From: a virus
IMG/VR virus record: IMGVR_UViG_3300042900_000834
Span: 1 to 25,883 of that record
Strand: one strand, 5' to 3'
Length of the DNA stretch: 25,883 nucleotides
Both the position numbers and the translations under genes were made by a program. Below are positions 7,498 through 25,883 of this stretch, in pieces. Every line of letters begins with the position of its first letter. Position 1 is the stretch's first letter. The notes under the pieces are model-generated. The model had not been told where the DNA came from and made no database searches. It was given only the letters and a program-made list of their open reading frames with translations.

Positions 7498-7502
7498 AAT
7501 AG

Positions 7503-7793: not shown

Positions 7794-7797
7794 GATT

Positions 7798-8004: not shown

Positions 8005-8008
8005 CCAG

Positions 8009-9298: not shown

Positions 9299-9331
9299 GG
9301 TTATCCTTAAAAAGTAATGTAGTAGTTAGTG

Positions 9332-10070: not shown

Positions 10071-10945
10071 GCTAGTCCAATCTTTCCCGGTGCCATTGGA
10101 CCTGTTGCTATTCGCTCACCGCCATCAAAATAGCGTATTTCAATGGGCATGTCCTGCCAGTTTAATCTATATGCGGCCATGATGCGATGATTGCCTTCGT
10201 TGACCCAGGCTTCGCCATTGTAGGCCACCATGATGTAGGGCAGGTATTCTTCGTTGGGGTTACTACCCATGGGCGGCAACTTACCGGTCTTTTCCATGTA
10301 GTCCATCAACCACTTTAGATCAGCTTTACGCACATTCATTTGTTCGTTACGCATGCCCGGTAACGACGCTAGTCGCATTACACGTACTCGCGGTGGTGCT
10401 CCAACGACACCAGCAGTAGTGCTACCCATATAAGGAACACCGTAGCTGTTGCGCCCTTTGCTCTTGGCATAGTCAATCTTGTCTTGCAACCATTCTTCAT
10501 TGGGTACGTCGATGCTTAACTTGCCTTCTGCTACTGTTTGCTCGTTGATTCGTGGATTTAAATTCTTTAGATGTTTAGCATCACCTTGTCGGCTCCATTT
10601 GGCCCACATGGCCTTGCCCATGTTAGTTCTATTAGACGATGGAGATATGTTTACTCCCAGCATGCGCATAACTGCATACATGTTTGCGGCAATACCCTTG
10701 CCTTGCCAAGCCTGGTCCACATGAGTACTCAGGCTTTCTAATCCGTCTTGAGTAGGGTGTTTCCAAAATGTTGCGGCACCAATTACTTGACCCTGTTTGT
10801 CTAGTGCCAGCATTTCAGGCATGCCTATTTTATTAATTACTTTATAAACAACACTGTTGATTTCTTGGCTGAATTTAAACCCCGGTTGCATCACAGCCTG
10901 GTTGAATTTTTCCTTGTATTCATGTAAAAATTCTTGTGCTCTCAT
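10067..10945 (-). CDS. Tagged GNAT acetyltransferase joined by VAE site to a ParB-like domain
   Basis: Begins MRAQEFLHEY; ATG 10945 follows a good AAGGA site. Residues ~30-125 are a GNAT fold, with the acetyl-CoA loop 'HVDQAWQGKGIAANMYAVM' (QGKGIA at 81-86). A single site QTVAEG (VAE 138-140) separates it from residues ~145-292, where 'WVNEGNHRIMAAYRLNW' (248-264) matches the ParB/sulfiredoxin-like nucleotide-binding motif. The linker thus lies exactly between two unrelated enzyme-like domains, as expected if it is a cut site. The stop overlaps the next tagged gene. Substrates are unknown. Confidence 0.83.
   Translation of the reverse strand: MRAQEFLHEYKEKFNQAVMQPGFKFSQEINSVVYKVINKIGMPEMLALDKQGQVIGAATFWKHPTQDGLESLSTHVDQAWQGKGIAANMYAVMRMLGVNISPSSNRTNMGKAMWAKWSRQGDAKHLKNLNPRINEQTVAEGKLSIDVPNEEWLQDKIDYAKSKGRNSYGVPYMGSTTAGVVGAPPRVRVMRLASLPGMRNEQMNVRKADLKWLMDYMEKTGKLPPMGSNPNEEYLPYIMVAYNGEAWVNEGNHRIMAAYRLNWQDMPIEIRYFDGGERIATGPMAPGKIGLA
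10526..10540 (-). repeat. Divergent VAE linker (QTVAE)
   Basis: Minus strand CAAACAGTAGCAGAA encodes QTVAE between the GNAT and ParB-like domains. Its codons differ from the common GVAE form, so here the peptide and not the DNA is conserved. Confidence 0.7.
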
Positions 10946-10961
10946 TCATTGTTCCTTTTTA

Positions 10962-12194: not shown

Positions 12195-12204
12195 ACATAT
12201 ATCC

Positions 12205-13572
12205 TTAGTGAAACATCAAGTAACTGTCAATCACATCTTTGCGATTGGCTGCACGATCCCCGGCACCAGGTTGTACAATAACATTCCACTTGGGTGTAGG
12301 ACCTACTGGTGTTGCCAGCATTTGATCGTAGGTGATAATTGAATCAAGGGCAACTTTGTACTGTTGTGCAAGACGTTGCTTGAATGTGTTGAGTGCTTCG
12401 GGGCTAGAAAATTGTGTGCGTCCCTTGGCGTCTTTGATCAAACTAGTGCCTTTACGTGCAATTAGGTCAAAGAACATGTCCTTGGGCACAGTAACACCCT
12501 GCTTGACTGTGGCACCGGGATTTTGTTGTTTGTAGAATTCAACTTTCTTTTCCTCGCCACGTTTGCTACCTGATGAGAAGTTCATTGTAAAGTTGGCAGG
12601 AGCGGCACCTGTGGCAACATCACCCATCTTGGTGTAGGCATAGAACTGTACATCAGGATTTGATTTGGCAACATCATATGCTAGATCCAAGTACTCTTTA
12701 GAGAAGAAGTCACCAGCATCGTGCCAACGTACAACTAGCTGAATACCAGCTTTGTCAGACTTGGCTTTGACTGCTTTGATCTCTTGATTGACTCTGGCAC
12801 TGTAACCTTCAGGATCATTCACCAGAAAGTTTAGTGCTTGTGCCGCACTCATTGAACTTGCGGGGAACATAACATAGCCACCTTTTCTAGCATAGCAGAA
12901 TAACTGACAAGCACCTGCACCGGGGCAAGTTGTAATTTCTACAAAGTCTCCAGTGTCTTCGTCTACAACAATACCCGATAATGCCGGCAATGTCAAGTCA
13001 TAAATGATTTCGCCTTCGGTCTTTGACTTTTCCATCTTGGCGTTGGTGCCAAGTATGGCCCGGGGGCGTGTGGTAATTTGGCGGGACAAGTCATCTAAGT
13101 CCCACTCTGTATTGTCATCATCTTTGGTGATGGCTCGGATGTTGCTGCCGTGAATAATAGGAGCAAACTTGTCACGCTTGGTCTTAGTGCCAGTCTTGAT
13201 ACGGTCAGCATAGCCCTGCAATTCGTCACGTGGAATTGTACGCTGTGGTGCGTTGAGCTTGATTGCTTCGCCCACGCCTTTAACAGCTTGAGATAATCTC
13301 CATCTTTGTTGTGGTCCCAACAAACGATCATCTTCGGGCTCGGCTTTGTAGCCACCATAACGACTTGGATCGGCATGATGTCTTATGCCCCCAGCAGTTT
13401 TTTCCACTCGTCCAGGTGTGACTGGAGAATTATCAGGAGGAGAATTTGGTCCACGGCGACCACTGTTGGCATTACCAGCTTCTTCAACACCTTGGTCTTG
13501 AATGTTTAAAACTTTGACTGGGAACCCACCAAGTGTGGCAGCTTCTTTTAATGTTACTTCAAATATTCTCAT
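12205..13572 (-). CDS. Gp88-like protein with tag-like N-terminus
   Basis: 455 aa; ATG 13572 overlaps the upstream stop as ATGA. The N-terminus MRIFEVTLKEA is a divergent tag ending L-K-E before Ala, and QGVEEA (VEE 29-31) is a likely second site. After a disordered Pro/Gly-rich stretch, residues ~190-455 resemble the Gp88 family known from mycobacteriophages: 'TTCPGAGACQLFCYARKGGY' (C216, C222, C226) and 'RWHDAGDFFSKEYLDLAYD'. The three cysteines may bind metal or an Fe-S cluster. Biochemical function of the family is not known to me. It lies among the tagged genes and is probably packaged or injected with them. Confidence 0.75.
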   Translation of the reverse strand: MRIFEVTLKEAATLGGFPVKVLNIQDQGVEEAGNANSGRRGPNSPPDNSPVTPGRVEKTAGGIRHHADPSRYGGYKAEPEDDRLLGPQQRWRLSQAVKGVGEAIKLNAPQRTIPRDELQGYADRIKTGTKTKRDKFAPIIHGSNIRAITKDDDNTEWDLDDLSRQITTRPRAILGTNAKMEKSKTEGEIIYDLTLPALSGIVVDEDTGDFVEITTCPGAGACQLFCYARKGGYVMFPASSMSAAQALNFLVNDPEGYSARVNQEIKAVKAKSDKAGIQLVVRWHDAGDFFSKEYLDLAYDVAKSNPDVQFYAYTKMGDVATGAAPANFTMNFSSGSKRGEEKKVEFYKQQNPGATVKQGVTVPKDMFFDLIARKGTSLIKDAKGRTQFSSPEALNTFKQRLAQQYKVALDSIITYDQMLATPVGPTPKWNVIVQPGAGDRAANRKDVIDSYLMFH

Positions 13573-14582
13573 CTTGCGGTACCTGCTTTTATTTCTTGTA
13601 ATTGATTCTGCAACTTCATCAGCAGGGGAGGAACACCGGCTGCATCAGTCTTAAATCCCATCTTGGCTGCCTGACGTTGCACTTCACCAGGCCGGATATC
13701 TTGTGTGATGGCCATGCTGTATCTTGGGTCTTGTGCTTCTTTGCTGTTGACGGGAATGTAGCCAGTGGCCTCGGTTACACTTTCATTTTTTTTCTTGCCG
13801 GCGCAATGTGCTCGTTGACTAAAGCCTTTGGGGTTGGCGCAGTTGATTGAACTCTTGTACTTTTGGCTCCACTTTTCATCAAGTTGTTCCTCCGCCACAC
13901 CTTGTGATTCAAACTGTCCCGCATCTTTAGCGACTTTACGCTCACTGCCTTGACTAGGAAATCCAGAACTTTGTGTTTGTGGTGAAGATTTTTGCATCTT
14001 TTGTGCGGCAGCATCCTGTGCTTTTGCTTTCAATACATTCAGTGTTCTTGTATCTAATTCTCTACCATCTTCTTTTGCTCGTTGAACTAATACATTATAG
14101 TATTTGTTAGCCAACTCTACTTGTTGAGCATTTATATTCGGCATCGTCTGAGCACCTGCACCTAGAGAACCTAATGCCATTGCTCCACCTATTGCCAGAT
14201 CCTTCCAGCCTTCCGCCACATCTTCATTTGACTTTTTCTTAGTGTTGACATTAATAGCTTTGCCACTACGCTCTGGATTAGGATCTTCTCTGCGCTTACG
14301 AGCTGCCGCACTTGCACGACCCTTCTTACCTAAACTATGTGCTTTACTTTGTGGCAAACACTTTGGCTTACCTTCACTATCATCACCTCTAGCACAATCA
14401 CCACGAATCTTTCCATCAGGACCAAAACGAACCCACTTTTCTTTGAACCACTTGCGCAGATCTTCTTCTAGTTCTTCGTTGGTATTTTTCACGCAGTTGG
14501 GATAGCGTTTGCCAAACATGGTCTTCATGCCTTCTTTGTGATAGCCTTTCCAACAGGCTTCTAGTATTTCTCGATATTTCAT
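13569..14582 (-). CDS. Modular protein of Cys cassettes joined by VAE sites
   Basis: 337 aa from ATG 14582 (ATGA overlap with the upstream gene; the longer frame to 14633 lies inside it). Begins MKYREILEAC. Cassettes in order: 'GMKTMFGKRYPNC' (C30); 'RFGPDGKIRGDC' with C63 and C75 and a basic 'KKGRASAAARKRRED' tail; DVAEG (VAE 122-124); a signal-like stretch 'WKDLAIGGAMALGSLGAGAQ' (126-145) and a helical segment; QGVAEE (VAE 229-231); 'SINCANPKGFSQRAHC' (C248 and C260, the same C-x11-C spacing as C63/C75); SVTEA (VTE 269-271, like a known T4 gp22 cut site); and a C-terminal helical segment. It reads as a string of small, basic, cysteine-paired units. No enzyme is recognised; DNA or metal binding is possible. 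Confidence 0.8.
   Translation of the reverse strand: MKYREILEACWKGYHKEGMKTMFGKRYPNCVKNTNEELEEDLRKWFKEKWVRFGPDGKIRGDCARGDDSEGKPKCLPQSKAHSLGKKGRASAAARKRREDPNPERSGKAINVNTKKKSNEDVAEGWKDLAIGGAMALGSLGAGAQTMPNINAQQVELANKYYNVLVQRAKEDGRELDTRTLNVLKAKAQDAAAQKMQKSSPQTQSSGFPSQGSERKVAKDAGQFESQGVAEEQLDEKWSQKYKSSINCANPKGFSQRAHCAGKKKNESVTEATGYIPVNSKEAQDPRYSMAITQDIRPGEVQRQAAKMGFKTDAAGVPPLLMKLQNQLQEIKAGTAR
13891..13904 (-). repeat. GVAE linker repeat
   Basis: Minus strand CAAGGTGTGGCGGA (QGVAE), before the second C-x11-C cassette of the modular Cys protein. Confidence 0.85.
14211..14224 (-). repeat. GVAE linker repeat (variant)
   Basis: Minus strand AAGATGTGGCGGAA (DVAE), just before the signal-like stretch of the modular Cys protein; one base from the common form. 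Confidence 0.75.
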
Positions 14583-14983
14583 TGTATCGGCCCACCTTCG
14601 ACCCAGGCACTGCATGTTCGTTTGGCGGCACATTTAAATTTAAGAAATTTGCAATAGCCCAATGTACCAGCATCTATTGTTGACTCAGGATCTGAACCTG
14701 GCTCTGACCCAATGCCCTTGGCAATACAATCCTGCATCTCTTCAGTGATATCAAATGCCGCACAGTTTCCGCATCGTGCAGACCGGGCCTGATCAACATC
14801 GTCCATGTTCCATTCTTGTGCTATCTTGGCCCAATACTCCTCATTGGGTTGATTGGGATCTAGTGGTCCGTACATGTACTCGTCAATGGCCTTTTTTCTA
14901 TTTTTTAAGTTTAGATCAATGCTTTGAGTAGCAGGAGGGCAGCCACGTTCTATGGCTTCAAGCATGTTTATAAAATTTCTCAT
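14579..14983 (-). CDS. Cysteine-rich protein with tag-like start
   Basis: 134 aa from ATG 14983, which overlaps the upstream stop as ATGA and gives MRNFINMLEA, a divergent tag ending M-L-E before Ala. Seven cysteines at 15, 71, 74, 86, 111, 118 and 124; the last six form CGNC-x11-C ... YC-x6-C-x5-C, followed by W127 and the end GGPIQ. This resembles a small Fe-S (high-potential-like) or zinc domain; which one cannot be decided by reading. It lies between two modular tagged proteins and is coupled to both by ATGA overlaps. Confidence 0.75.
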   Translation of the reverse strand: MRNFINMLEAIERGCPPATQSIDLNLKNRKKAIDEYMYGPLDPNQPNEEYWAKIAQEWNMDDVDQARSARCGNCAAFDITEEMQDCIAKGIGSEPGSDPESTIDAGTLGYCKFLKFKCAAKRTCSAWVEGGPIQ

Positions 14984-17052
14984 TTTTTGTTTCCCCAATT
15001 GTCGGCACCTTTTTTGCGACACTGAACCAGTGCACCACTAGCATAAGCACTGGGCCATACTTTGTAACGGCTCTTGACTTTGTAGTAACAGGCATCTTGT
15101 TTTTCATTGATCAGTAATTCACTAAACATTGCCCCGCCGCACTCAGGACATTGTTCTTGCGACTCCGCCACTGGTTTTATTCTATTTAATTCGTACATTA
15201 CCTTGTTGCCGGTGTCTGAACGTGAGGATGTAAAGCCCAATGCTCTAGCATAACGCTGTATCAAACTATCATACAATCCTGCACGACTTTGTTCTTTTTG
15301 TCCTGTCTCAACTTGTTTGCTGGCTGAAAAATATACTTTATTAGGTTTGTATTTTCCAATAGCACCCGGCACTCTGTCAGAAATAAATGTTTGAATAGCA
15401 TTTAACACCGTGGCAAATACACGGAATTCGTCACCTTCTCCTGTGACTTCTTGGCTGTTGTTTCTATAAAACTCAACACTCCATGCTTCTTCTTTTGTCT
15501 CTTGGCTAAATCCCTTGTTGAACATAATACTTAGAAAGGTGTTGTCATCTAATCGTGCTATGGCGTCTACATCACCGTAGTCACCCTTTTCCCATCGAAG
15601 TATTTTATAGGGTTGATCCAAGGCTTCGTTGACATCTTCGGGCACTACTTGCCCTTGGCGACGACGCAGTTCATTTCGAAGTCGTTGCATCACCTCTTCT
15701 TCGGCACCAGCTCGACCCATGCGCTTGATGGTCTGTGCCGCTGTGCCTGCCGCCTGTACACCACGAACAGCATCACCTGTTGTAGCACAACCTGGTGCGC
15801 CGGCTATGCATGCAGCCGCTGCCACAGCCGCAAGGCGGTCTTTGACAGACTCTTCCAATGGAATATCTTTAAAAAATTCTGGGTACTGATCCACCCAATG
15901 CCGCATGATGCGGCCTGCCATGGCATTGGCCTCATCTTCGTAGGGTGATCCTGTCTCGCCTGCATCCACGGGCATGGTAGCCAGTTCGTCTTGGCGAGCG
16001 TGTGTGAGTTCGTGTGCCAGAGTTCGTAAAATATCCAACACATGTCGTCCACTCACTGCCAGTGTAATTGAGCCAGTTTTGGTGTCAAACTGACCAAATG
16101 TACCGTTTCTGCGTGTCCACTCAGGATCGCGTTTTAATATAATTTTTGGAGGTTTCTCGATGTCAAGGTATTCAACGCAACTGTCTATAAATGGTTGTAG
16201 TGTTTCTTTGATGTCTTTGTTTTCCATTACACTTTCGCCACCACCGCCATCACCACCTTCTGCAGAGTCACTGCTAAATGAGTAACCTGGATAAAAATAA
16301 CCTCCGTAGCCATAGCGCACACGCTTTTTCTTTTTCCGACGTTCATTTAAGCTGAGTTCTTGATCCCGTGCTTGATTCACCGCTGTCTTTAACTTTTCCA
16401 ACAATCCATGTCTGCGCAATAATTTAAATGTTAAATTTTCTGGCCCAAACTCACCAGTGTCAGCAAGCCCGGTCTTGCGCATGGTTTTAACTTTTTCCCA
16501 GAGATTTTTGATAACTTCAACATTGCCACTTTTTAGTGCTTGTTCTATTCTATTGCCTAGGTCTTCGTATTTGCTTTTTACTGAAATGTCATCCACTGTG
16601 TGGTGCCGACGATTTGGCACACGAATCCATTTGTTGCTGATCAAACTATAAATGCCTTGACTATGATGTGGCTGTGTAGCATCTTGAACATAGAGTTCAA
16701 CATCATAGCCGGCAATTTTGTAATTGTGTTCATCGTTGTATTGATACTTTTTGGCATCAAACAACTCGCGGTAAACATCACTGTCACAAACTTCGTCAAG
16801 GTTGACTACTAGGTGCAGGTCAATATCGCTGTGTGGGGTGTACGTATAGGCAGCGTTGCTGCCGCTAATTGTGACATCTTGAATATCTAGGTCACGTATG
16901 CCCAAGAATTGACGAAAATCGTCAGCAATGGCCCGAAGTTGTTGTTCAACTTCAGGGCGCAGTTGTTCGTTTTGCCACAGACGCGGGTTTAATTCACTGT
17001 GAAATTTTACCGCGTCTGCAAGATTATAGGTTTCTAGTTCGTTGATGTTCAT
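14980..17052 (-). CDS. Nucleotidyltransferase-metallopeptidase modular protein
   Basis: 690 aa, the largest of the modular set. Order: nucleotidyltransferase with GSNAAYTYTPHSDIDLHLVV (64-83; D76, D78); helical region; basic and Gly/Tyr-rich linker (238-273, includes SAEGG); zinc peptidase with HELTH (347-351) and a likely third ligand in 'YEDEANAMAGR' (E372/E374); 'IPLEES' site (~398-402); hydrophobic signal-like stretch LAAVAAAACIAGAPGC (407-422); 'DVNEA' site (V474-E476); a beta-rich domain starting 'YKILRWEKGDYGDVDAIARL'; 'PVAES' (VAE 628-630); CPECGG zinc-knuckle-like segment; and a final cassette with C655 and C678. Start ATG 17052 has no Shine-Dalgarno but a TAAATA box. Both enzyme motifs appear intact; substrates are unknown. 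Confidence 0.83.
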   Translation of the reverse strand: MNINELETYNLADAVKFHSELNPRLWQNEQLRPEVEQQLRAIADDFRQFLGIRDLDIQDVTISGSNAAYTYTPHSDIDLHLVVNLDEVCDSDVYRELFDAKKYQYNDEHNYKIAGYDVELYVQDATQPHHSQGIYSLISNKWIRVPNRRHHTVDDISVKSKYEDLGNRIEQALKSGNVEVIKNLWEKVKTMRKTGLADTGEFGPENLTFKLLRRHGLLEKLKTAVNQARDQELSLNERRKKKKRVRYGYGGYFYPGYSFSSDSAEGGDGGGGESVMENKDIKETLQPFIDSCVEYLDIEKPPKIILKRDPEWTRRNGTFGQFDTKTGSITLAVSGRHVLDILRTLAHELTHARQDELATMPVDAGETGSPYEDEANAMAGRIMRHWVDQYPEFFKDIPLEESVKDRLAAVAAAACIAGAPGCATTGDAVRGVQAAGTAAQTIKRMGRAGAEEEVMQRLRNELRRRQGQVVPEDVNEALDQPYKILRWEKGDYGDVDAIARLDDNTFLSIMFNKGFSQETKEEAWSVEFYRNNSQEVTGEGDEFRVFATVLNAIQTFISDRVPGAIGKYKPNKVYFSASKQVETGQKEQSRAGLYDSLIQRYARALGFTSSRSDTGNKVMYELNRIKPVAESQEQCPECGGAMFSELLINEKQDACYYKVKSRYKVWPSAYASGALVQCRKKGADNWGNKK
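15164..15177 (-). repeat. Divergent VAE linker (PVAE)
   Basis: Minus strand AAACCAGTGGCGGA encodes KPVAE before the CPECGG segment of the 690-aa protein. It keeps the GTGGCGGA core only. Confidence 0.65.
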
Positions 17053-17060
17053 ACGAACTG

Positions 17061-17066
17061 TATTTA
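17061..17066 (-). promoter_or_regulatory. TAAATA box before the 690-aa gene
   Basis: GGTAAATACA ends eight bases before ATG 17052, in the 20-base gap that separates it from the glycosyltransferase gene. It resembles a T4-late-type box; no Shine-Dalgarno site is present. Confidence 0.4.
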
Positions 17067-17072
17067 CCGCAG

Positions 17073-17918
17073 TTACTTTTTCTTGGCTTTGGTCTTGGGC
17101 GCATCTGTGACCTTGGCGTCCGGTGCGCTAGCGGCTATAATTTGCGGTGGCGTGGTATCAACTACAACTTTGGCTGTGGGTTTGTACGTGGGATCCATGG
17201 CCTGTAAGGCACGATACAAGGGCTCTTGAGCCTGGAAGTCAAACACATAGCTGCCGGTGTGCTTGAGTAACACACGTTTGTCAACCCAAACTTTGCCGCC
17301 AATGTCACGCCAGTTTTCACAGAATGTCCAGTCTTCACTGTAGTAACGATTTTCACGCACTGCTGTATCATAGTAGGTGCGCAGGTGTTGATCTAGTTCC
17401 TTGGGCAAGCCAATGTCGTTGTTGAATGGGCGCACAGCTGGATGTGCGTTGAGTTTCTCAAATACATCACGCTTGACCAACATAAATCCAGTGCCGGTTT
17501 TTGATACTTCTTGTAGGCCATCTTCACCTTCTTCGGCTCCGTCAAAGCCGTTGACCACCCATTTCACTGGCAAGGTCTTCATGGGATACAATCCGCCAAT
17601 AACATCAACTTGACGATTTAACATCACCAACAGGTGCCAAGGTTCCCATCCAATGTCTGCGTCAATGAACATCAAGTGTGTTGAGTCAGGGTTGGCCAAG
17701 AACTTGGCCACCAACGTATTACGAGCTCTGCTGATTAAGCTTTCATTGGTCATGGTTTCCATGGTCCAGTCAATGCCCAGTTGTCGACAGGTGTTGGCCC
17801 ATTTAATGTAGCTCATAAATGTTGATTCTGTCAACATGCCGCCATAACAGGGCATGCAAATGTGTACGCGAGTTGTGCGCAAATAGTCAATGTTGACTTG
17901 GATTTGTTGTTCAGCCAT
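17073..17918 (-). CDS. GT-A type glycosyltransferase
   Basis: 281 aa. Starts MAEQQIQVNIDYLRTTRVHI; 'ICMPCYGGML' is the first nucleotide-binding strand and loop, and 'HLMFIDADIGWEP' carries the D-A-D metal/sugar-nucleotide motif (86-88). 'SKTGTGFMLVKRDVF' and 'YYSEDWTFCENWRDIGG' fit the acceptor-side and catalytic regions of the same fold. The last ~40 residues are Pro/Ala/Lys-rich and end KAKKK, probably disordered. AAGGA stands before ATG 17918. Possible roles are decorating phage DNA bases, virion proteins or host surface; none is shown by the sequence. Confidence 0.85.
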   Translation of the reverse strand: MAEQQIQVNIDYLRTTRVHICMPCYGGMLTESTFMSYIKWANTCRQLGIDWTMETMTNESLISRARNTLVAKFLANPDSTHLMFIDADIGWEPWHLLVMLNRQVDVIGGLYPMKTLPVKWVVNGFDGAEEGEDGLQEVSKTGTGFMLVKRDVFEKLNAHPAVRPFNNDIGLPKELDQHLRTYYDTAVRENRYYSEDWTFCENWRDIGGKVWVDKRVLLKHTGSYVFDFQAQEPLYRALQAMDPTYKPTAKVVVDTTPPQIIAASAPDAKVTDAPKTKAKKK

Positions 17919-17933
17919 TTTTTCCTTCTTTGG

Positions 17934-18641
17934 TTACTGATTAAATTCTAAACATATATGAGACTTATTTCTCATAGTACATTTGGTTGCAAAACTTGTT
18001 AGATAGTTGTAGAGATTGTCATCTATCAGTGCTATGTGTTCATGCCAATCGCCTTCAAACCCCAGGGGCCAGTAATTTATATAATTAGTTATTGTCAACG
18101 AACCTTGGTTGTTTTTTAATACTGGCACCAGTTTTTTAAAAAATCTATGCCATTCATCAGAATTGATATGTTCGAGACTGGCCACCATCACCACAGCATC
18201 CAGTTCACTGAGATCCAGTGACTCCCAATTGGTGTCAAGGTCTCCAAGATACAGCTGAATATTATCGCCACAAGGTGCGTTAAAATACTGTCTTGATACT
18301 GCACGTATCCAATGCTCGGCACTGTGATTGCACTCCACTGTTTGTATTTTACACTCATCATTGGTGTTGGACAAGAACACGCTCATCAATCCATCACCTC
18401 CGCCAATTTCCAGCATTGATTTTGGATGTTTTTTTCGGTTTGTTTTGATCCAAGCAAGTTGTTCAGTAAGATCTGTTATATTGGGCACATCATAAATGCC
18501 GTGCATGTAGCAGGCTGCTGGCCACATGTCTTCTTTGCGCAGGCCCAGTGGCCAATCTTTGAAATCTCTCAATATTCTATTGTAGTTGTAAAACTGTCCA
18601 TAGATGGGGTTGATGTCTGTCAAGTTGTTAACTATTTTCAT
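17934..18641 (-). CDS. SAM-dependent methyltransferase
   Basis: 235 aa. The SAM loop 'SMLEIGGGDGLMSVFLS' is a clear class I motif I, followed by 'IQTVECNHSAEHWI' (strand 2 acidic residue), 'YLGDLDTNWESL', and 'LDAVVMVASLEHIN' (motif IV-like). The C-terminal part 'INYWPLGFEGDWHEHIALI' is aromatic and probably forms the substrate pocket. It resembles small-molecule or sugar methyltransferases more than DNA methylases, as there is no DPPY/NPPY motif. It overlaps the upstream gene by 14 bases and precedes the glycosyltransferase, so the two may act on one glycan; that is inference. Confidence 0.8.
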   Translation of the reverse strand: MKIVNNLTDINPIYGQFYNYNRILRDFKDWPLGLRKEDMWPAACYMHGIYDVPNITDLTEQLAWIKTNRKKHPKSMLEIGGGDGLMSVFLSNTNDECKIQTVECNHSAEHWIRAVSRQYFNAPCGDNIQLYLGDLDTNWESLDLSELDAVVMVASLEHINSDEWHRFFKKLVPVLKNNQGSLTITNYINYWPLGFEGDWHEHIALIDDNLYNYLTSFATKCTMRNKSHICLEFNQ

Positions 18642-19098
18642 TCATGGTCCAGTGTTGGTAATTTTTCATCAACCAAGCGTACACAGGTGAGGAAAAAGCA
18701 AAGTTGACTGTGCCGTTGCGGCCCAATACTCCCCAGAACTTGTCAGCATCGGTAGAATCATCATAGAGGTAATTGCAACTGCCTAGGTTAAAAAATTCAG
18801 TGATATTGACATGATCCAAGATGAATTTATCAACATTAATTACTGTGTCAGCCAGTATATTTCCTTGTTCATCAACTTGTGTGTGCAACGCTGTTTTGTT
18901 TTTTAATTGAATAGTCAGCAAGTGCTCACCGCCGGCGTCATCAAATGTGTGAGTTATTACTTCGGGCAATTGATCAGATCTTGCAGTGAAAATAACATCG
19001 CCGTCAAATCCAATTACCACAGTCACAGGCAATCGAGTGTTGATTGCTGAGAGTACAATGTCAATTTGAGATGTAAATGCTGAGTTTGCTGATGGCAT
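18628..19098 (-). CDS. Beta-sandwich protein, paralog of 20269-20700
   Basis: 156 aa from ATG 19098. It shares with the 143-aa protein at 20269-20700 a repeated layout: N-terminal strands with 'V.I..DG..I..A', then 'DE.GNI..D..I.' and a C-terminal 'G..G.NG.V...FS.P.Y.WL' signature. The alternating polar-hydrophobic pattern suggests a carbohydrate-binding-like sandwich, and the location next to the methyltransferase and glycosyltransferase is compatible with that. No catalytic residues are visible. The start codon lies inside a 7-base inverted repeat (19096-19119). Confidence 0.72.
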   Translation of the reverse strand: MPSANSAFTSQIDIVLSAINTRLPVTVVIGFDGDVIFTARSDQLPEVITHTFDDAGGEHLLTIQLKNKTALHTQVDEQGNILADTVINVDKFILDHVNITEFFNLGSCNYLYDDSTDADKFWGVLGRNGTVNFAFSSPVYAWLMKNYQHWTMNENS

Positions 19099-19119
19099 AT
19101 CAATATTTAATATGATATG
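19096..19119. repeat. Inverted repeat spanning the start of the beta-sandwich gene
   Basis: Arms CATATCA and TGATATG (7 bases) enclose an AT-rich centre. The gene's ATG lies in one arm and a TAAATA box in the centre, so it may affect transcription or translation start. Confidence 0.4.
19104..19109 (-). promoter_or_regulatory. TAAATA box before the beta-sandwich gene
   Basis: TTAAATATT ends five bases before ATG 19098; no Shine-Dalgarno site is present. It is one of five such boxes in this window. Confidence 0.3.
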
Positions 19120-19136
19120 CTGTGGTGGTGATAGTT

Positions 19137-19277
19137 TTATGACGCCAGACGCACGCCCATGCCAATTAGCACAGTTTTTGTTCGTTGTTGTGTGGGAGTC
19201 ATCTGTGCCAGCGGACTTCCGTGTTGTCTAGGTTTTGACACCAGCGGTGATTTAAGTTGCTGAGGCTTCGTCAACAT
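19137..19277 (-). CDS. Possible 46-aa gene in the gap after the HxGH protein
   Basis: The gap between the genes on either side is 153 bases, large for this compact window. An open frame from ATG 19277 starts MLTKPQQLKSPLVSKPRQ, is basic, and ends 'KTVLIGMGVRLAS'. It overlaps the last 26 bases of the HxGH gene. No ribosome site is visible, and I recognise no family. It is plausible because of spacing and a protein-like composition, but unproven. Confidence 0.4.
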   Translation of the reverse strand: MLTKPQQLKSPLVSKPRQHGSPLAQMTPTQQRTKTVLIGMGVRLAS

Positions 19278-20253
19278 AATCAGTATTTTCGCCAATGTCA
19301 ATTTCGCGCCCTTGGGCAACGGGACGACGGCCTTGTTTGGTACTAAAATCTTCCAGGCGTGCCAACGCTTGTACTTTGGCCTGCATGGCACCGGCCTTGT
19401 ACAGCAAATGCTCAACACCGCGATAATTACCAACCTTGAGCATTTCCACTATTTCAACCAGTTGTTTAGCCAAGCTGTTTTTGAGACTACCTTCGTTCCA
19501 AGTGCCTAGGCCACCGTTGGGACGAATTTGAATCCCTTCTTCGGGATCATTGACCAGCGTGGCTTCGTCAACTGTTTTTTCATCTGGGCCATTGGGCATG
19601 GGCACACTGCTGGGGTTTAACGTACCAACACCGCCACCAATTGGCGCACCTTGTAACTGTTCTTTTACTTCGTTGCCCATGCCAGCGTCTAGTAACTTAA
19701 TGGTGACATCGGTGAGTTTGTCGTTGCCATCAGTGGTTGGATACAAAGCATGTACCAAGTTGACTTTTTGTTTTGGTGACATCTTTGGCCACTTGCTACG
19801 AATCTCAGTGGCACTGGTCATGCCATTGCCAAATTGCACCACTGGCAAGTAAGCCATGTAGCCATGTTTACTCATAGGTGCAAGTCCATTGCGTTTGTAG
19901 GGTTGCAGGTAGGCAGGTTCACCTTTCTTTTTAACGCCGCCGGGTTGTGGTTGTTCATTGCGATCTTTTTCACTGCGAACAAAAATTAGTTGGGTTTCGT
20001 TGGGATCAAAGTGCTGTGTGATTTCCTCGGCACGAAACGGGTTTTTGACTTGTGTAAATCTATGTGCGGGAATGCCAGCCAATCGAGCTAGTTTTTCTTT
20101 GATGGGAAAGGGAAATGGTCGTGTGCTGGTATCGTCTGTGGCTGCAATATAAATGTCAGCACTGGGAAATGCGGCACGGGCTGAATCATAAAGGGCTTTG
20201 TGACCTGCATGAAATGGATGGAAACCACCGGGAATAATCACTAATTTTTTCAT
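19252..20253 (-). CDS. HxGH nucleotidylyltransferase-like protein
   Basis: 333 aa. Residues 1-160 are a nucleotidylyltransferase fold: 'IIPGGFHPFHAGH' with HAGH at 15-18 and 'TSATEIR' at 146-152 (ISSTxIR-like), as in NMN or pantetheine-phosphate adenylyltransferases and cytidylyltransferases. Such enzymes join a nucleotide to a phosphorylated small molecule; the substrate cannot be read here. Residues ~200-333 are an extra helical and Gly-rich region not found in the basic enzyme, with 'TVDEA' (VDE 228-230) and 'YVDEAS' (327-329), which fit the hydrophobic-x-E, Ala pattern of the packaged proteins. No head tag is present at the N-terminus. A TAAATA box precedes ATG 20253. Confidence 0.85.
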   Translation of the reverse strand: MKKLVIIPGGFHPFHAGHKALYDSARAAFPSADIYIAATDDTSTRPFPFPIKEKLARLAGIPAHRFTQVKNPFRAEEITQHFDPNETQLIFVRSEKDRNEQPQPGGVKKKGEPAYLQPYKRNGLAPMSKHGYMAYLPVVQFGNGMTSATEIRSKWPKMSPKQKVNLVHALYPTTDGNDKLTDVTIKLLDAGMGNEVKEQLQGAPIGGGVGTLNPSSVPMPNGPDEKTVDEATLVNDPEEGIQIRPNGGLGTWNEGSLKNSLAKQLVEIVEMLKVGNYRGVEHLLYKAGAMQAKVQALARLEDFSTKQGRRPVAQGREIDIGENTDYVDEASAT

Positions 20254-20258
20254 ACTGG

Positions 20259-20264
20259 TATTTA
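20259..20264 (-). promoter_or_regulatory. TAAATA box before the HxGH gene
   Basis: GATAAATACC, the best match here to a T4 late promoter core, ends five bases before ATG 20253 in a 15-base gap. There is no Shine-Dalgarno site. Confidence 0.4.
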
Positions 20265-20268
20265 TCGG

Positions 20269-20700
20269 TTACATGTTTTCTAATAGCCACAAGTAAATTG
20301 GGCCAGAAAACTTTAGGGTAACTTGACCATTGCAACCCATTTTGCCATAAAATTTTTCTATTACTTTGTTACCGGTACCATTAAAATCATGTGTATAATC
20401 GGCTAATTCGTAAAATGTGTGTTCCAAAGGAATTTTATCTAAACATACATCCGAAATTTCAATGATGCGATCATCTATGATATTGCCAGCTTCATCTAAC
20501 ACAGTGTGGTCGGGCTGTTTACCCTGCATGATTATTTCCAACGCATATTCAGCATCATCAACATCTTCGCAAGCATGACTTATGTCTGTAAACTCAGTGC
20601 CAAGTTCGGCATTATAGATCACCACACCATCTAGTTTGACCAACAATGTTAAATCTGCACCAGTGGCACGGGCTTTAAAATCAATTGAAAAGTCACTCAT
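20269..20700 (-). CDS. Beta-sandwich protein, paralog of 18628-19098
   Basis: 143 aa from ATG 20700, one base after the preceding stop. Begins MSDFSIDFKARATGADLTLL. It shares the 'LDEAGNIIDDRIIEI', 'YGKMGCNGQVTLKFSGPIY' and 'WLLENM' regions with the 156-aa protein ~1.6 kb further along, so one probably arose by duplication. The fold looks like a small sandwich of strands; virion or glycan-binding role is possible. No enzymatic motif. Confidence 0.75.
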   Translation of the reverse strand: MSDFSIDFKARATGADLTLLVKLDGVVIYNAELGTEFTDISHACEDVDDAEYALEIIMQGKQPDHTVLDEAGNIIDDRIIEISDVCLDKIPLEHTFYELADYTHDFNGTGNKVIEKFYGKMGCNGQVTLKFSGPIYLWLLENM

Positions 20701-20701
20701 G

Positions 20702-21070
20702 TCAATATGACAGCATTAATTTGGTGATAGTACCATCATCAAAGTCTTCGACTCTGGCTCGGATCCAAGTAAAATTACCGGTGATATTGTGACTAAAATT
20801 GTCAGTCACAGCATCAGTGAGTGCATCTACTGAGTCAATTCGGAACCAATCTGCGGCAGTGGCCGGGGTTCCTTCAAGACTGCCTTCAATTGTTATTAGG
20901 CCTTGAAATCCTGACAGGAAATACGCCACGGTCTGCAATCCGCCAAATCCACCATAATAGTTGGCAGCTTGTTGAGCAGGGCCTGCCCAGTCAAGACTTG
21001 AACCATCGTAGTTACCAGACGGAGTTCCGTAGGAGGTGGTGGGCAGTAATTGTAGCGTGGTAGTTTTCAT
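20702..21070 (-). CDS. Probable phage structural protein, 122 aa
   Basis: Starts MKTTTLQLLPTTSYGTPSGN; composition is Gly/Ser/aromatic-rich and beta-like, with 'GLITIEGSLEGTPATAADWF' and 'NITGNFTWIRARVEDFDDGT'. This style is common in small virion-associated proteins of T4-like environmental phages, but no named family can be given. The ATG overlaps the preceding TAA by one base (TAATG), so translation is probably coupled. Confidence 0.7.
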   Translation of the reverse strand: MKTTTLQLLPTTSYGTPSGNYDGSSLDWAGPAQQAANYYGGFGGLQTVAYFLSGFQGLITIEGSLEGTPATAADWFRIDSVDALTDAVTDNFSHNITGNFTWIRARVEDFDDGTITKLMLSY

Positions 21071-21234
21071 TATGCTCGATCCGCTTCCACAACAACACTG
21101 GGTCCCGCCAGCTCTTCGGCCACACTTTGCAATGCGGCAACAATGTCATCGGTGGCAATGTCGCCACCAGCATCGGTATCTTTGATCAATTTTGAGAGTT
21201 TGATCACAACTACTTCTTCGTGTATTTTAGCCAT
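21070..21234 (-). CDS. 54-aa hypothetical protein
   Basis: A short gene that fills the space between its neighbours. It starts MAKIHEEVVVIKLSKLIKDT and ends 'GPSVVVEADRA'. The pattern is strand, helix ('DDIVAALQSVAEELAG'), strand, so a small alpha/beta fold. Its stop overlaps the next start as TAATG. It contains SVAEEL, but within a predicted helix, so I do not count it as a linker site. Its even codon-like pattern and fit in the operon support it; function unknown. Confidence 0.65.
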   Translation of the reverse strand: MAKIHEEVVVIKLSKLIKDTDAGGDIATDDIVAALQSVAEELAGPSVVVEADRA

Positions 21235-21240
21235 AGTCAA

Positions 21241-21960
21241 TTATTTAGTTAATATCCTTGCAGTTTTTCTAATTAATCCGGGACTCATTAGTTCCAGCAT
21301 GAATGGTATAGCATCATCATTGTGATCAAAAAAATGATGTCGTTGCAGTCTTAGTTCAGACGATCTGTAGGCACCGCTGGCACGACGATTGATTATTTTA
21401 TCCAGACTTGGACATAGTCTCAACTCCATTTGACTACTTAGAAAATTACTAACTGTGATTTTTTCTTTCTCACTCAGCCAGCATTCTTTAAAATAGCTTC
21501 GAGAATTGTACTTGCTTTCGGCTAGCGCGATTGAGTCTCTTGGCCTGCTAATCACTGCTTCTCTCACTTTGAAATTGGTGATATAAGGTAGTTGTTGTAG
21601 CTGATTAATAATGTCCAGCTCACTGGCGTACACATATCCCCAACTGCCACTTACCATCAGATGCACCTGGTCATGATGTACTCTTAATTTATCAGCAAAA
21701 TCCAATAAATCTTCAAGGTTGCCAACTCGTGCAGGGTCTTTCATTCTCCAGCTACCGCCTTGGTTTATGTAGCGTTGCTGATTGCTAAACGACTGAGTAA
21801 TGAGTTTGCTGGCCTCCAGCTCGTCGTGTATTCGTAAAGTATTTCGAAGACAGCAAACGCTGGCCAGCCTGAAACTCAACACATATTGATACCTATCAAA
21901 AAATAGTCGATCAGTGGGTGCTTTTTTAATTGCCGAGTCCGTCAACGACGATGAAACCAT
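21241..21960 (-). CDS. Hypothetical protein after clpA, 239 aa
   Basis: ATG 21960 lies inside the end of clpA (35-base overlap) with an AGGT site eight bases before it. The body is mixed alpha/beta with 'VHLMVSGSWGYVYASELDII' and 'REAVISRPRDSIALAESKYNSRSY', and a C-terminal 'RHHFFDHNDDAIPFMLELM'. The paired histidines and aspartates could bind metal, but no family is recognised. Coupling with clpA suggests shared early expression. Confidence 0.7.
   Translation of the reverse strand: MVSSSLTDSAIKKAPTDRLFFDRYQYVLSFRLASVCCLRNTLRIHDELEASKLITQSFSNQQRYINQGGSWRMKDPARVGNLEDLLDFADKLRVHHDQVHLMVSGSWGYVYASELDIINQLQQLPYITNFKVREAVISRPRDSIALAESKYNSRSYFKECWLSEKEKITVSNFLSSQMELRLCPSLDKIINRRASGAYRSSELRLQRHHFFDHNDDAIPFMLELMSPGLIRKTARILTK
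21242..21247 (-). promoter_or_regulatory. TAAATA box before the 54-aa gene
   Basis: CTAAATAAT ends seven bases before ATG 21234. It includes the TAA stop of the upstream gene, so chance is more likely here than at the other boxes. Confidence 0.22.
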
Positions 21961-24202
21961 TGTTATCTACCTGTGCTTGAGTATCGTTGTTTGATTGAGT
22001 ATTGAATACCAATGCACCATCAACAAGATCTATGTTGATATCACAGTTGTTCCAACGATCAAACAATATATGTTTACTTAATGGCACACGAATGAGCTCA
22101 TCAATTTTTCTTGACAAGGGTCTAGCCCCCATTTTGGGATCATACCCTTGTTCAGCAATGTAGTTAACAGACCGTTCGGTCAACGAAAGCTTGATATTTT
22201 TATCTGTCAAGCTTTGCTTGATCTCGTCCACAAACTTAATGACAATTTTCTTGATGGCCAATTGATCCAGCTTGCCAAATTTACAAATCTTGTCAATTCG
22301 ATTGCGTAGCTCGGGTTTGAAGAAGTCCTTGAGAGCACGATCTTCTTCACCTGCCTTGTCAAGGCTTGTGCTAAATCCAATGTTGTTGTTTTCGTTGTCT
22401 CGGGCACCTAGATTTGATGTCATAATGATGATGGTGTTCTTGCAGTCCACAGTCTTGCCGTTGCTTCCTGTGATCTTGCCTTCGTCCAGCATCTGCAACA
22501 AAATATTACTGACATCAGGGTGAGCCTTTTCAATTTCATCAAAAAGTATAATTGCAAACGGATTCTTGCTGATGTCGCTGATGAGTCTACCTCCAGCGAG
22601 ATTGCCATCTTCAAATCCCACATAGCCCGGAGGTGCACCAATGAGTCCGCTCACCGAGTGTCGTTCTTGATACTCGCTCATGTCATATTTCAACAACTTC
22701 ATCTCAAGGTGTTCGCTGAGTAGTCGAGCTAATTCAGTTTTACCTGTGCCAGTTGGTCCTAGGAACAAGAAACTGGCCATGGGTTTTTTACCGTTGCCAA
22801 CTCCAGCAAAATTCACATACACTCGCTCCAGCACAGCATCCACTGCGGCATCTTGTCCGTGCAAAAATTGTTTAATATTGCTTTCCAAATCAACAATTTT
22901 ACGACTCTGCGCATTTTCCAATCGATCAATGGGCACACCGGCCACACGACTCAATTGAGCCAGAATCAATTCTCGAGTAATGGTAATTGTGCCAGCATCC
23001 TTGACTCGTTCACGACTGCAGGCAGCATCGATTAGGTCAATACTCTTGTCAGGATTTTTACGATCATGTATGTATCTCCCACTGAGTTCCACGGCTGCGG
23101 TAATGGCCGCAGTGTCAATCATGACATTGTGAAACTTTTCTAGTCTTGGACTAAGTCCAATAAGAATTTGCTCGGTGACAGGATTTGTTGGTTCGTCCAC
23201 GCCCAGCCTATGAAATCTACGCATCAAGGCACGATCTTTTTCAAAGCTTTCGTAGTACTCTTCCCAGGTTGTGCTGGCAATGACTTTGAGTGTGCCTTTG
23301 GTAATAGCTGGTTTGATCATGTTGGCAAAGTCAAGACTGCTTTGTCCTGATGTCCCGGCACCCTTCATGGTGTGTGCTTCATCAATAAACAGCACACAAT
23401 TCTTTTTGCTTTCCAGGGCTTGAATAATTTGTTTGAGTTTTTCTTCAAACTCACCGCGGTACTTGCTACCTGCTAGCAAGTTTCCAATCTCAAGACTCCA
23501 TACTTCGTTTTCCTTGAGAAATTCTGGCACATCATTATGAGCAATGCGCTGGGCCAGGCCTTCAATCAAGGCAGTTTTGCCCACACCAGGATCTCCTACT
23601 AGTAACACATTGGCTTTGAACCGGCGTGCCAGCACAGTGATCATTTCTTTGATGTCAGTGTCTCTGCCAATTACAGGTTCCAGTCTGTCTTCTTTGGCCT
23701 GCTGTGTTAAATTAGCACAGTGCTCTTCGAGTATTTCTGTAGCTTGCTGGGCAGTTAAGCTACCGCCACTGTGACTGTAGTGTTGTTCCCAGTGCTTGAC
23801 AAACTCATGTTTGTTGACACCATATTTGAGCAAAAAGTAATGTGCATGGCTGTTGGTTTCGCTCATGATGCTCAGATACAAATCCACGGTGGTCACTGTT
23901 CTACGTCCAGTGAACAAAACTTGAGTTAGTGCACGGTTAAACACCCGCTCAAGTGCATTTGTTTTACGTGGTTGAAGATTGGGATCAGGTTTTTCGAGAC
24001 TGCTGAGTCCCGAAAGATAAACATCTAACTCTTGTGTGAAGTTATCAACATTGCAGCCAAACTTTACCAACACCGTTTTAAACGGCTCATGTGCCAGTAG
24101 ACTGGCCAGCAGGTGCTCGGTGAGTACGTACTCATGATGTTTGTTTCGTGCAATGCGCACGGCATTTTCTACAATTTGTTCAATTTCTGGGTTGTTTTGC
24201 AT
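21926..24202 (-). CDS. clpA: ClpA-type AAA+ unfoldase
   Basis: 758 aa from ATG 24202 (an in-frame TTG at 24220 is less likely). ClpA-family machines unfold proteins and feed them to ClpP. N-terminal Clp repeat domain ~1-140; D1 Walker A GDPGVGKT (203-210), Walker B LFIDEAH (271-277), pore loop 'GSKYRGEFEE'; D2 Walker A GPTGTGKT (482-489), pore GYVG (526-529), Walker B ILFDEIE (552-558). There is no long ClpB middle coiled coil. The loop 'NNIGFSTS' has IGF at 608-610, the tripeptide that docks on ClpP, so it could use host ClpP. No clpP gene is in the window. A strong promoter precedes it; dnaJ lies just upstream. Confidence 0.93.
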   Translation of the reverse strand: MQNNPEIEQIVENAVRIARNKHHEYVLTEHLLASLLAHEPFKTVLVKFGCNVDNFTQELDVYLSGLSSLEKPDPNLQPRKTNALERVFNRALTQVLFTGRRTVTTVDLYLSIMSETNSHAHYFLLKYGVNKHEFVKHWEQHYSHSGGSLTAQQATEILEEHCANLTQQAKEDRLEPVIGRDTDIKEMITVLARRFKANVLLVGDPGVGKTALIEGLAQRIAHNDVPEFLKENEVWSLEIGNLLAGSKYRGEFEEKLKQIIQALESKKNCVLFIDEAHTMKGAGTSGQSSLDFANMIKPAITKGTLKVIASTTWEEYYESFEKDRALMRRFHRLGVDEPTNPVTEQILIGLSPRLEKFHNVMIDTAAITAAVELSGRYIHDRKNPDKSIDLIDAACSRERVKDAGTITITRELILAQLSRVAGVPIDRLENAQSRKIVDLESNIKQFLHGQDAAVDAVLERVYVNFAGVGNGKKPMASFLFLGPTGTGKTELARLLSEHLEMKLLKYDMSEYQERHSVSGLIGAPPGYVGFEDGNLAGGRLISDISKNPFAIILFDEIEKAHPDVSNILLQMLDEGKITGSNGKTVDCKNTIIIMTSNLGARDNENNNIGFSTSLDKAGEEDRALKDFFKPELRNRIDKICKFGKLDQLAIKKIVIKFVDEIKQSLTDKNIKLSLTERSVNYIAEQGYDPKMGARPLSRKIDELIRVPLSKHILFDRWNNCDINIDLVDGALVFNTQSNNDTQAQVDNNGFIVVDGLGN

Positions 24203-24231
24203 ATTTTTTAAAAGTGTCAATGACAGTAGTT

Positions 24232-24260
24232 AGTATACATGAAGTTTCAACAATTGTCAA
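24232..24260 (-). promoter_or_regulatory. Sigma70-type promoter for clpA
   Basis: Minus strand: perfect -35 TTGACA (24255-24260), 17-base spacer, -10 TATACT (24232-24237). The predicted leader is ~23 bases, AT-rich, with no clear ribosome site. Host-like consensus suggests early expression. Confidence 0.85.
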
Positions 24261-24266
24261 CAATAT

Positions 24267-25073
24267 TTATTGACCACGTGTTTGCCGAATTAACTCTAGT
24301 AAATTGTCAGGTATGTGATCGGGTAGTCGAGCATCTAGTTTTAACATTAGGTCACCACGTGACTGTGGTTGTCCTTTGACGGGTAATCCGTGGCCACGAA
24401 CACGCAGGGTTGTACCAGGCTGAGTTTTTGGCGGAATCGTAACACTCAATTCGTCCCCAAATATGTTTTTGACAGCAACGTCGCCGCCAAGAATCAAATC
24501 CCACATTGACACATGAATCAGGGTGCTTAGATGACTGCCTGTTCGTTGCCAGTCGGTGTCAGGTTTGACTCTAAAAGTAACAATTAGGTCTAGTCCAGCT
24601 GGCCCAGCTCCGGCATAGCGCACAGTATCGCCATCATCAATTCCAGCAGGTATGTGTATTTCGCTATTGGTATTTCCGTGTTGCGTTCCTATTGATATAA
24701 CACGTGGTCCACCAGTGGCTACATCATGCAAACTTACCCACAAACTAAGTTTGACATTGCGTTGCATGAATTCTTGATGCGGGTTTCCAGAACCTGGCCT
24801 TGCGCCAAACATCTCAAAGATGGCATTGAAGTCAAAGGGATTTGCACCACCTTGATGAAACTGAGATGGGCCACCTCTGTGAACAGGGTTATCGTGTTGT
24901 TGTCGTTTTACAGGATCGCCAAGAGTTTCGTACGCTGTTTGTATTTCTTGAAACCGTGCAGTTTCACCGCCCTTGTCCGGATGATGTTGGCTGGCCAACT
25001 TCCTATAGGCACGTTTAATTTCGTCAGCAGTGGCAGTACGTTGCACACCCAACGTGGCGTAGTGATCAGTCAT
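24267..25073 (-). CDS. dnaJ: Class B DnaJ co-chaperone (CbpA-like)
   Basis: 268 aa. J domain residues 1-60 with HPD at 31-33 ('SQHHPDKGG'), which stimulates the DnaK ATPase. Gly/Phe-rich region ~64-102 ('GGANPFDFNAIFEMFG'). The C-terminal two beta domains ~105-260 carry 'IHIPAGIDDGDTVRYAGAG' and 'TIPPKTQPGTTLRVRGHGLP', typical of client binding. The cysteine zinc fingers of class A DnaJ are absent, as in CbpA. It has its own promoter. With clpA it forms a host-directed protein folding/unfolding pair; the partner DnaK would be the host's. Confidence 0.95.
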   Translation of the reverse strand: MTDHYATLGVQRTATADEIKRAYRKLASQHHPDKGGETARFQEIQTAYETLGDPVKRQQHDNPVHRGGPSQFHQGGANPFDFNAIFEMFGARPGSGNPHQEFMQRNVKLSLWVSLHDVATGGPRVISIGTQHGNTNSEIHIPAGIDDGDTVRYAGAGPAGLDLIVTFRVKPDTDWQRTGSHLSTLIHVSMWDLILGGDVAVKNIFGDELSVTIPPKTQPGTTLRVRGHGLPVKGQPQSRGDLMLKLDARLPDHIPDNLLELIRQTRGQ

Positions 25074-25094
25074 AGAAAAGGGTCCAATACAGTA

Positions 25095-25123
25095 ATTATA
25101 CTAGACCCTAGGCTAGGTGTAAA
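25095..25123 (-). promoter_or_regulatory. Sigma70-type promoter for dnaJ
   Basis: Minus strand: -35 TTTACA (25118-25123), 17-base spacer, perfect -10 TATAAT (25095-25100). The spacer contains CCTAGG and CTAG motifs that could form an operator. A GGGTCTA/TGGACCC stem with a TTTT run overlaps it, possibly a terminator for the gene upstream. Confidence 0.82.
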
Positions 25124-25124
25124 G

Positions 25125-25343
25125 TTATTTCTTTTCAGGAATAGCTGTGCCTTCGTGTTTCTTGTGCTTTTTCATTACTTTGCAGTCCTGTTTGGGCTTG
25201 CCAGTTTTTGGATCCAAGACAGGCTTGCCGTCCTTGCCTTGCACATCGATGCAGACTTGTACAGTTTCCTTCTTGGCTTCTTCGGCCAACACTGGCTGTG
25301 CCAATATCAAACATAAGCCTGCTACAAATATAACGTTTTTCAT
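25125..25343 (-). CDS. Small secreted basic protein, 72 aa
   Basis: Starts MKNVIFVAGLCLILAQPVLA, a clear signal peptide with likely cleavage after A20. The mature ~52 residues are lysine-rich with two cysteines (in 'VQVCIDVQG' and 'KQDCKVMKK'), a possible periplasmic disulfide, and end 'HEGTAIPEKK'. AAGGAAA stands before the ATG. It follows the membrane protein at 25355-25876. It may act in the host envelope; function is unknown. Confidence 0.75.
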   Translation of the reverse strand: MKNVIFVAGLCLILAQPVLAEEAKKETVQVCIDVQGKDGKPVLDPKTGKPKQDCKVMKKHKKHEGTAIPEKK

Positions 25344-25354
25344 TTTATTTTCCT

Positions 25355-25876
25355 TTAAATTTCAGGTTGATCAAACTGTGGAACAGCTTTTTTACCACCC
25401 CATCCAGTTGTCACCGGTGCCGGTCCAAAGCCATTAGACGCTGACGTTCCAAATCCTGTATTGCCACCAAAGCCTGTTGAAGCTGGCGGCACTGCGCCGT
25501 AGCCTGGTGCTGAGGTTCCAAATCCGCCACCCAAGGGTGCTGATCCCCAGGACTGTGTGACTGTGGTTGCTGTTGGTGCACCAAAGCCACCTGGTCCGGG
25601 CTGTTGCATTGCTCCTGGCGCTTGATATGTTGTTCCGACATTTGCTGGAAGTTGGATTCCGCCATTGTTTGCTCCTTGTAGTTTTTCTTGTGTTCTGCCA
25701 TAAGCGGCAAGACCTAAAACAGCACCCATGGAGATGTGAAATAATCCAGCACCTTGCAGAGTCAATGGTTGCCATTGTACGTTAACACCGCCCTTGTACA
25801 GAGCCTGTACTAGACTCCAGAGTATGGGTGCAAGTACAAAGTCAAAGAAACACACAAACATGTACAACCATCCCAT
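25355..25876 (-). CDS. Two-helix membrane protein with Gly/Pro-rich tail
   Basis: 173 aa from ATG 25876, seven bases from the window edge, so a longer start outside is possible. Residues ~1-27 ('MFVCFFDFVLAPILWSLVQAL') and ~42-60 ('GLFHISMGAVLGLAAYG') are membrane helices. The rest is low-complexity Gly/Ala/Pro/Thr/Phe, with repeated 'GFG' units, and a short charged end. Two helices and small size allow a holin-like role, but holins rarely have such a tail, so I leave it as a phage membrane protein. Confidence 0.65.
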   Translation of the reverse strand: MGWLYMFVCFFDFVLAPILWSLVQALYKGGVNVQWQPLTLQGAGLFHISMGAVLGLAAYGRTQEKLQGANNGGIQLPANVGTTYQAPGAMQQPGPGGFGAPTATTVTQSWGSAPLGGGFGTSAPGYGAVPPASTGFGGNTGFGTSASNGFGPAPVTTGWGGKKAVPQFDQPEI

Positions 25877-25883
25877 GGCCGGA

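Follow-up and report, generated by a model that had tools for sequence, protein, structure and literature searches.

A dnaJ–clpA gene pair with a conserved ClpP-docking loop and host-type promoters, probably part of a phage-encoded Clp set in RaK2/Atu_ph07-type jumbo phages

The IMG/VR virus record IMGVR_UViG_3300042900_000834 is a genome fragment of 25,883 bases, analysed here over its whole length (the window). On the minus strand it encodes a putative unfoldase of the ClpA family and, upstream of it, a putative DnaJ co-chaperone, each preceded by a promoter-like site. The DNA polymerase encoded in the window is nearest to those of Sinorhizobium phage Phosso (52%), Agrobacterium phage Atu_ph07 (47%) and Vibrio phage 2.275 (46%). 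The features of the locus are as follows.

25095..25123, minus strand: promoter-like site before dnaJ, TTTACA-17-TATAAT, 11 of 12 consensus positions, conserved in relatives
25079..25109, minus strand: terminator-like hairpin, 13 pairs followed by TTTTC, overlapping the −10 element of the dnaJ promoter; a consensus match only
24267..25073, minus strand: dnaJ, 268 amino acids; J-domain with HPD motif and C-terminal domain, no zinc finger
24232..24260, minus strand: promoter-like site before clpA, TTGACA-17-TATACT, 11 of 12 positions, conservation in relatives weaker
21926..24202, minus strand: clpA, 758 amino acids from ATG 24202; N-domain and two AAA+ modules, no ClpB-type middle domain
22373..22381, minus strand: codons of the ClpP-docking tripeptide Ile-Gly-Phe (IGF), residues 608–610 of the 758-residue ClpA; coordinates counted by hand

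The clpA reading frame ends with a stop at 21926 and is open back to an in-frame TTG at 24220. ATG 24202 is the likelier start, because the alignments of most relatives begin at its residue 1 and because a start at the TTG would leave nearly no leader downstream of the promoter. The product matches the Pfam families AAA, AAA_2, AAA lid, ClpB_D2-small and Clp_N, and the phage family phrog_4871 (E 6e-237; residues 8–744 of 764 against profile positions 7–759 of 764). Its best match among solved structures is Escherichia coli ClpA, aligned over the full length (E 2e-168), and the Walker A and B motifs of both AAA+ modules are present, with small variants, in all 86 phage ClpAs aligned (80 IMG/VR relatives, the window and five isolates). 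The top-scoring NCBIfam family is the ClpA equivalog TIGR02639, at 783 bits. As this is under the 993-bit cut-off for bacterial orthologues, the protein is best described as a phage member of the ClpA family, not as a ClpA orthologue. Identity as ClpB was ruled out: no middle-domain insertion interrupts the alignment to ClpA, and the ClpP loop is present.

That loop is the ClpP contact of ClpA and ClpX. The window I-G-F aligns onto I-G-L of E. coli ClpA, placing the docking loop at the same position; the sequence of E. coli ClpB differs there and has nothing resembling the loop. The tripeptide is IGF in 84 of the 86 phage ClpAs and IGV in two, those of RaK2 and Vibrio phage 2.275. Over 59 dereplicated sequences, the mean entropy of the three tripeptide columns is 0.07 bits, against 1.06 bits for 24 flanking columns. 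Because these columns are near-invariant amid variable flanks, the loop is, as judged from the alignment, strongly constrained, as a ClpP contact would be.

The DnaJ protein matches PF00226 (J-domain) and PF01556 (C-terminal domain), and no further Pfam family. Among 80 DnaJ homologues the HPD motif is found in 79, the single exception being a truncated piece, and a search for the C..C.G zinc motif found it in none. Of the 80 relatives, 79 have dnaJ upstream of clpA, and in three of the five isolates it adjoins clpA or sits one gene away; RaK2 and Vibrio phage 2.275 have clpA with no dnaJ neighbour. Partner genes were surveyed in 43 ClpA-bearing records, namely 38 from IMG/VR (the longer ones of the 80 loci) and the five isolates. 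Many of these records are fragments, in which missing matches carry little weight, and there are near-duplicates among them (for example G003/G004 and G020/G021), so that the record counts are not independent. DnaK is encoded in two of the 43, and in none of the ten large genomes (five IMG/VR records above 300 kb and the five isolates). Since the other 41 records lack a phage DnaK, the phage DnaJ probably relies on that of the host. There is a precedent in phage RB43, whose J-domain protein Rki is an early product that binds the DnaK of the host and stabilizes sigma32 (PMC3486835).

The sites before dnaJ and clpA are the only two in the whole window to match the sigma70 consensus at 11 or more of 12 positions. 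Sixty shuffles of the window gave a mean of 0.38 such sites, and two were reached in four of the 60. Weaker sites (at least 9 of 12) are at chance in positions 1–13000 (23 against 22.7 expected) and mildly raised in 13001–25883 (31 against 22.7, standard deviation 4.6). With weak sites near chance, the promoter evidence therefore lies in the quality, position and conservation of the two strong ones. Conservation was assessed in 62 distinct upstream regions of relatives, identical ends having been removed. Upstream of dnaJ, 36 of the 62 have a site of at least 11/12, and 16 of these are perfect, whereas shuffles reach 11/12 in 0.2%. Upstream of clpA, four reach 11/12 and 16 reach 10/12, against 0.2% and 4.8% of shuffles. 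For nine other window genes, two of whose queries often matched the same open reading frame (ORF), a single region out of 55 in all reached 11/12 (for 17073–17918). On the shuffles and the conservation in relatives, a chance origin of the two promoters was rejected. The hairpin that overlaps the first of them may end transcripts arriving from upstream.

Perfect promoters of this kind are not confined to the pair. Ten IMG/VR genomes contain 76, on one strand in each genome, against two in the reversed control, and PA5oct contains eight; the dnaJ promoter is among them in five of the ten. As the perfect sites are spread genome-wide, the dnaJ promoter is one of a class and is not specific to the module. 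Nineteen other perfect sites in two genomes were fetched and 10 downstream ORFs scanned for family membership: these include a UvsX-like recombinase, a QueE-like enzyme, a cysteine dioxygenase, a member of a ferredoxin-labelled family and an endolysin-like protein, together with three families of unknown function and two ORFs with no match. No capsid or tail protein was found among the 10. At six major-capsid genes, the best upstream site reaches 8/12; for this control, nine of 20 records matched and the correct ORF was identified at six of the nine loci, L160, L165 and L167 being dropped. In L160, the match to Gp23 in the major-capsid region (that of G004) has one in-frame TAA, which may be an insertion, an error or a frameshift. 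A tail-sheath control with PF04984 was uninformative, with no match in any of the 20 records. The T4-type late promoter TATAAATA has no match in the window. A phage sigma factor reading these promoters was considered and rejected: Sigma70_r2 occurs in just two of the ten large genomes (RaK2 and Vibrio phage 2.275), and in none of the five from IMG/VR. The perfect-site promoters look like an early/middle or accessory class, and a promoter of this type speaks for the host polymerase in unmodified form and for transcription early or midway through infection.

An earlier sequence-only reading of this DNA had proposed a ClpA and DnaJ module at 21926–25123, a retained ClpP-docking loop, near-consensus sigma70 promoters before both genes and recruitment of host DnaK by DnaJ. 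The module, the loop and the promoters are all confirmed by the results above, and the last proposal is supported. Its further suggestion, that the unfoldase redirects host ClpP, depends on what partners these phages encode.

ClpP was matched in 27 of the 43 ClpA-bearing records, including all five IMG/VR records above 300 kb, all five isolates and five of the six IMG/VR records of 200–300 kb. ClpS is found in 24 of the 43, including the same ten large genomes, and a ClpX-sized ATPase in eight of those ten. In all eight relatives inspected, a ClpX with an IGF loop is encoded a few genes before clpS, and in four of them a perfect promoter lies upstream. One such operon-like run (L152:969–5103), downstream of a perfect sigma70 site, encodes an unknown protein of 511 residues, ClpX, two products assigned by Pfam to ribosomal protein S21 and Hsp20, and ClpS.

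In the IMG/VR genomes above 300 kb the main ClpP is accompanied by a divergent paralogue, the two genes being about 2–4 kb apart in several genomes. In E. coli mature-protein numbering, the residues that we take to form the docking cleft are Tyr62, Phe82 and Leu114. Among 17 distinct main ClpP sequences, the Ser-His-Asp triad and Tyr62 are present in all, and Phe82 and Leu114 in 16; the lower-scoring proteins of RaK2 and Vibrio phage 2.275 were left out of this set. All 16 paralogues compared retain the triad (a Vibrio paralogue whose triad is altered was left out), but Tyr62 is replaced in them by Met, Ile or Ser, Phe82 by Ser, Gly or Ala and Leu114 by Thr. The same changes appear in a profile alignment (99% probability). 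Two main-type ClpPs that were scanned score 316.9 and 255.9 against the ClpP subfamily NF001368 (cut-off 249); against the NCBIfam family Clp_rel_HeadMat they score 99.7 and 79.7 bits, below its 120-bit cut-off. RaK2 and Vibrio phage 2.275, whose ClpAs have IGV, are also the phages with the most altered ClpP clefts, which fits a joint change of phage ClpA and phage ClpP, with n=2. The paralogue, encoded close to the main clpP, is itself a highly conserved protein (e.g. L103:6115–6687, L102:9350–9919 and relatives) that has the triad and lacks the docking cleft. At four loci with both genes, an opposite-strand ORF of about 420–530 codons lies between or beside them.

We therefore read dnaJ–clpA as supplying the unfoldase and the co-chaperone of a Clp proteostasis set that RaK2/Atu_ph07-type jumbo phages themselves encode, and give this reading a probability of about 0.6. 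Both genes would be transcribed by the RNA polymerase of the host, carrying the main sigma factor, each from its own near-consensus promoter. The ClpA hexamer would dock through its IGF loops on a phage ClpP encoded elsewhere in the genome, and we infer that the phage of the window carries such a clpP. By analogy with E. coli, phage ClpS would choose substrates; ClpAP would then unfold and degrade the selected proteins, and DnaJ would recruit host DnaK.

Several observations weigh against this reading. No clpP was found in the 25.9-kb window, nor is there one beside clpA in any of the five isolate loci. Sixteen of the 43 records, these being fragments, have no ClpP match, and one of them is 200 kb long. 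The PHROGs label for the ClpPs of relatives is head maturation protease. PA5oct keeps IGF despite a partly altered ClpP cleft, a poor fit to the joint change. Finally, Atu_ph07 and Phosso have no perfect sigma70 site anywhere in their genomes.

A more specific arrangement is tentative and, in our judgement, rather improbable. Bacterial ClpP1P2 systems offer a model for two ClpPs acting together. The IGF-loop ClpA and ClpX might dock only on the cleft-keeping ClpP, the cleft-less paralogue making up the second ring or a chamber of its own, with both unfoldase operons under host-type promoters, as a self-sufficient asymmetric Clp machine.

Under the suggestion of the sequence-only reading, phage ClpA would instead dock on host ClpP and redirect it to chosen proteins. 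ClpP clefts are conserved among bacteria, which makes cross-docking chemically plausible, and the phage ClpAs have kept the loop that it would use. Phage ClpS has also been proposed to feed host ClpAP (PMC7824862). However, the relatives encode a ClpP of their own in which the triad and much of the cleft are preserved, and redirection is disfavoured for this reason; the pairing of IGV with the most altered phage clefts likewise fits a phage ClpP partner, although in two phages only. The sequence-only reading had itself named a phage ClpP among the findings that would speak against it, and such a ClpP is encoded by relatives, the window itself being a 25.9-kb fragment. Redirection of host ClpP is thus possible, if unlikely, and no longer the simplest reading.

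It is similarly unlikely that DnaJ is an independent factor of host takeover, comparable with Rki, and that its adjacency to clpA is incidental. Both proteins are J-domain proteins of phages expected to meet host DnaK; the dnaJ promoter is stronger and more conserved than that of clpA, and clpA stands without dnaJ in RaK2 and Vibrio phage 2.275. Unlike Rki, however, the window DnaJ has a full C-terminal substrate-binding domain and is encoded next to clpA, upstream of which dnaJ is also placed in nearly all relatives. Rki is described as not a generic co-chaperone (PMC3486835).

Less likely still is a role of the two proteins in virion assembly, in which they would unfold and fold tail or head proteins independently of ClpP. 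A role of ClpA or ClpX in assembly, or in translocating unfolded proteins, has been raised (PMC7824862). The genes on either side of the pair in PA5oct are labelled virion structural or detected by mass spectrometry, clpA lies near tail sheath or sheath-stabilizer genes in RaK2 and Vibrio phage 2.275, and two families, one of them labelled virion structural protein, are common to the ORF at 20702–21070 and the gene that follows clpA in PA5oct. Against this, a near-invariant ClpP loop is unexpected in an unfoldase that never meets ClpP, dnaJ has host-type promoters that the six major-capsid genes do not match, the PA5oct ClpA and DnaJ features have no mass-spectrometry note, unlike their neighbours, and in G005 about 150 kb separate clpA from the major capsid gene.

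The gene pair, the family and the gene set have been described before, in Atu_ph07 and in further RaK2-like phages (PMC6102473, PMC7824862). Seven Clp-family genes and DnaJ are listed for Atu_ph07, among them ClpA (gp292), DnaJ (gp293), ClpP (gp676), ClpS (gp708) and ClpX (gp2) (PMC6102473), and the moraphage lineage is another in which ClpA is common (PMC12619734). Atu_ph07 resembles the window in having dnaJ directly before clpA, a ClpA-family protein with an IGF loop and a related DNA polymerase. It differs in that its ClpA and DnaJ are 38.5% and 34% identical to those of the window, in the absence of perfect sigma70 sites and in that its genome has ClpP and ClpS, neither of which is seen in the fragment. 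Compared with the E. coli ClpAPS system, the window ClpA shares the N-domain, the two AAA+ modules and the loop position, and its relatives have ClpP and ClpS as partners; it has IGF instead of IGL, scores below the ClpA cut-off and has dnaJ, not clpS, as its neighbour. In the literature consulted we met neither the loop statistics for the 86 sequences nor the conservation of the dnaJ promoter, nor the cleft pattern of the two ClpPs. No test of phage ClpA binding to phage or host ClpP was found in the open-licence literature.

One further ORF adjoins the pair.

21241..21960, minus strand: orphan ORF sharing 35 bases with the 3′ end of clpA; a homologue follows clpA in most relatives

Homologues are present in 72 of the 80 relatives and the window, at approximately 20–34% identity compared with about 70% for ClpA. 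The structure model is confident (predicted local distance difference test 92), and viral matches include an Atu_ph07 protein; there is no match to a solved structure at E ≤0.001 and no convincing Pfam family. This ORF could encode a fast-evolving adaptor or substrate.

Elsewhere in the window, again on the minus strand, are a complete-looking S-adenosylhomocysteine hydrolase (8012–9298; PF05221 and PF00670), unusual as phage metabolic cargo, a ferritin-like/Dps-type protein (6885–7325; PF00210 and a phage DNA-binding family) and a Radical SAM/SPASM protein (3786–4928). A promoter-like site with an extended −10 element (3778–3750, minus strand) lies after this last gene, not before it. The products of 10962–12194 and 14980–17052, also on the minus strand, are otherwise different proteins with a common C-terminal match to phrog_727 and phrog_3477, and one of the two also matches M48 peptidase and DUF6321. 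In a scan of one genome collection the sole match was a 3.5-kb contig (L169) in a Chitinophagaceae metagenome-assembled genome, with a ClpA 62% identical; this is probably stray phage DNA and at most a weak hint of the host.

If these phages do encode a complete Clp protease with its adaptor, jumbo phages may choose which host and viral proteins survive without the ClpP of the host. Were the asymmetric machine to exist, degradation would come under virus control soon after infection, bypassing host control of ClpP. The conservation of the loop in 84 of 86 ClpAs and the co-occurring phage ClpP make binding to phage versus host ClpP directly testable.

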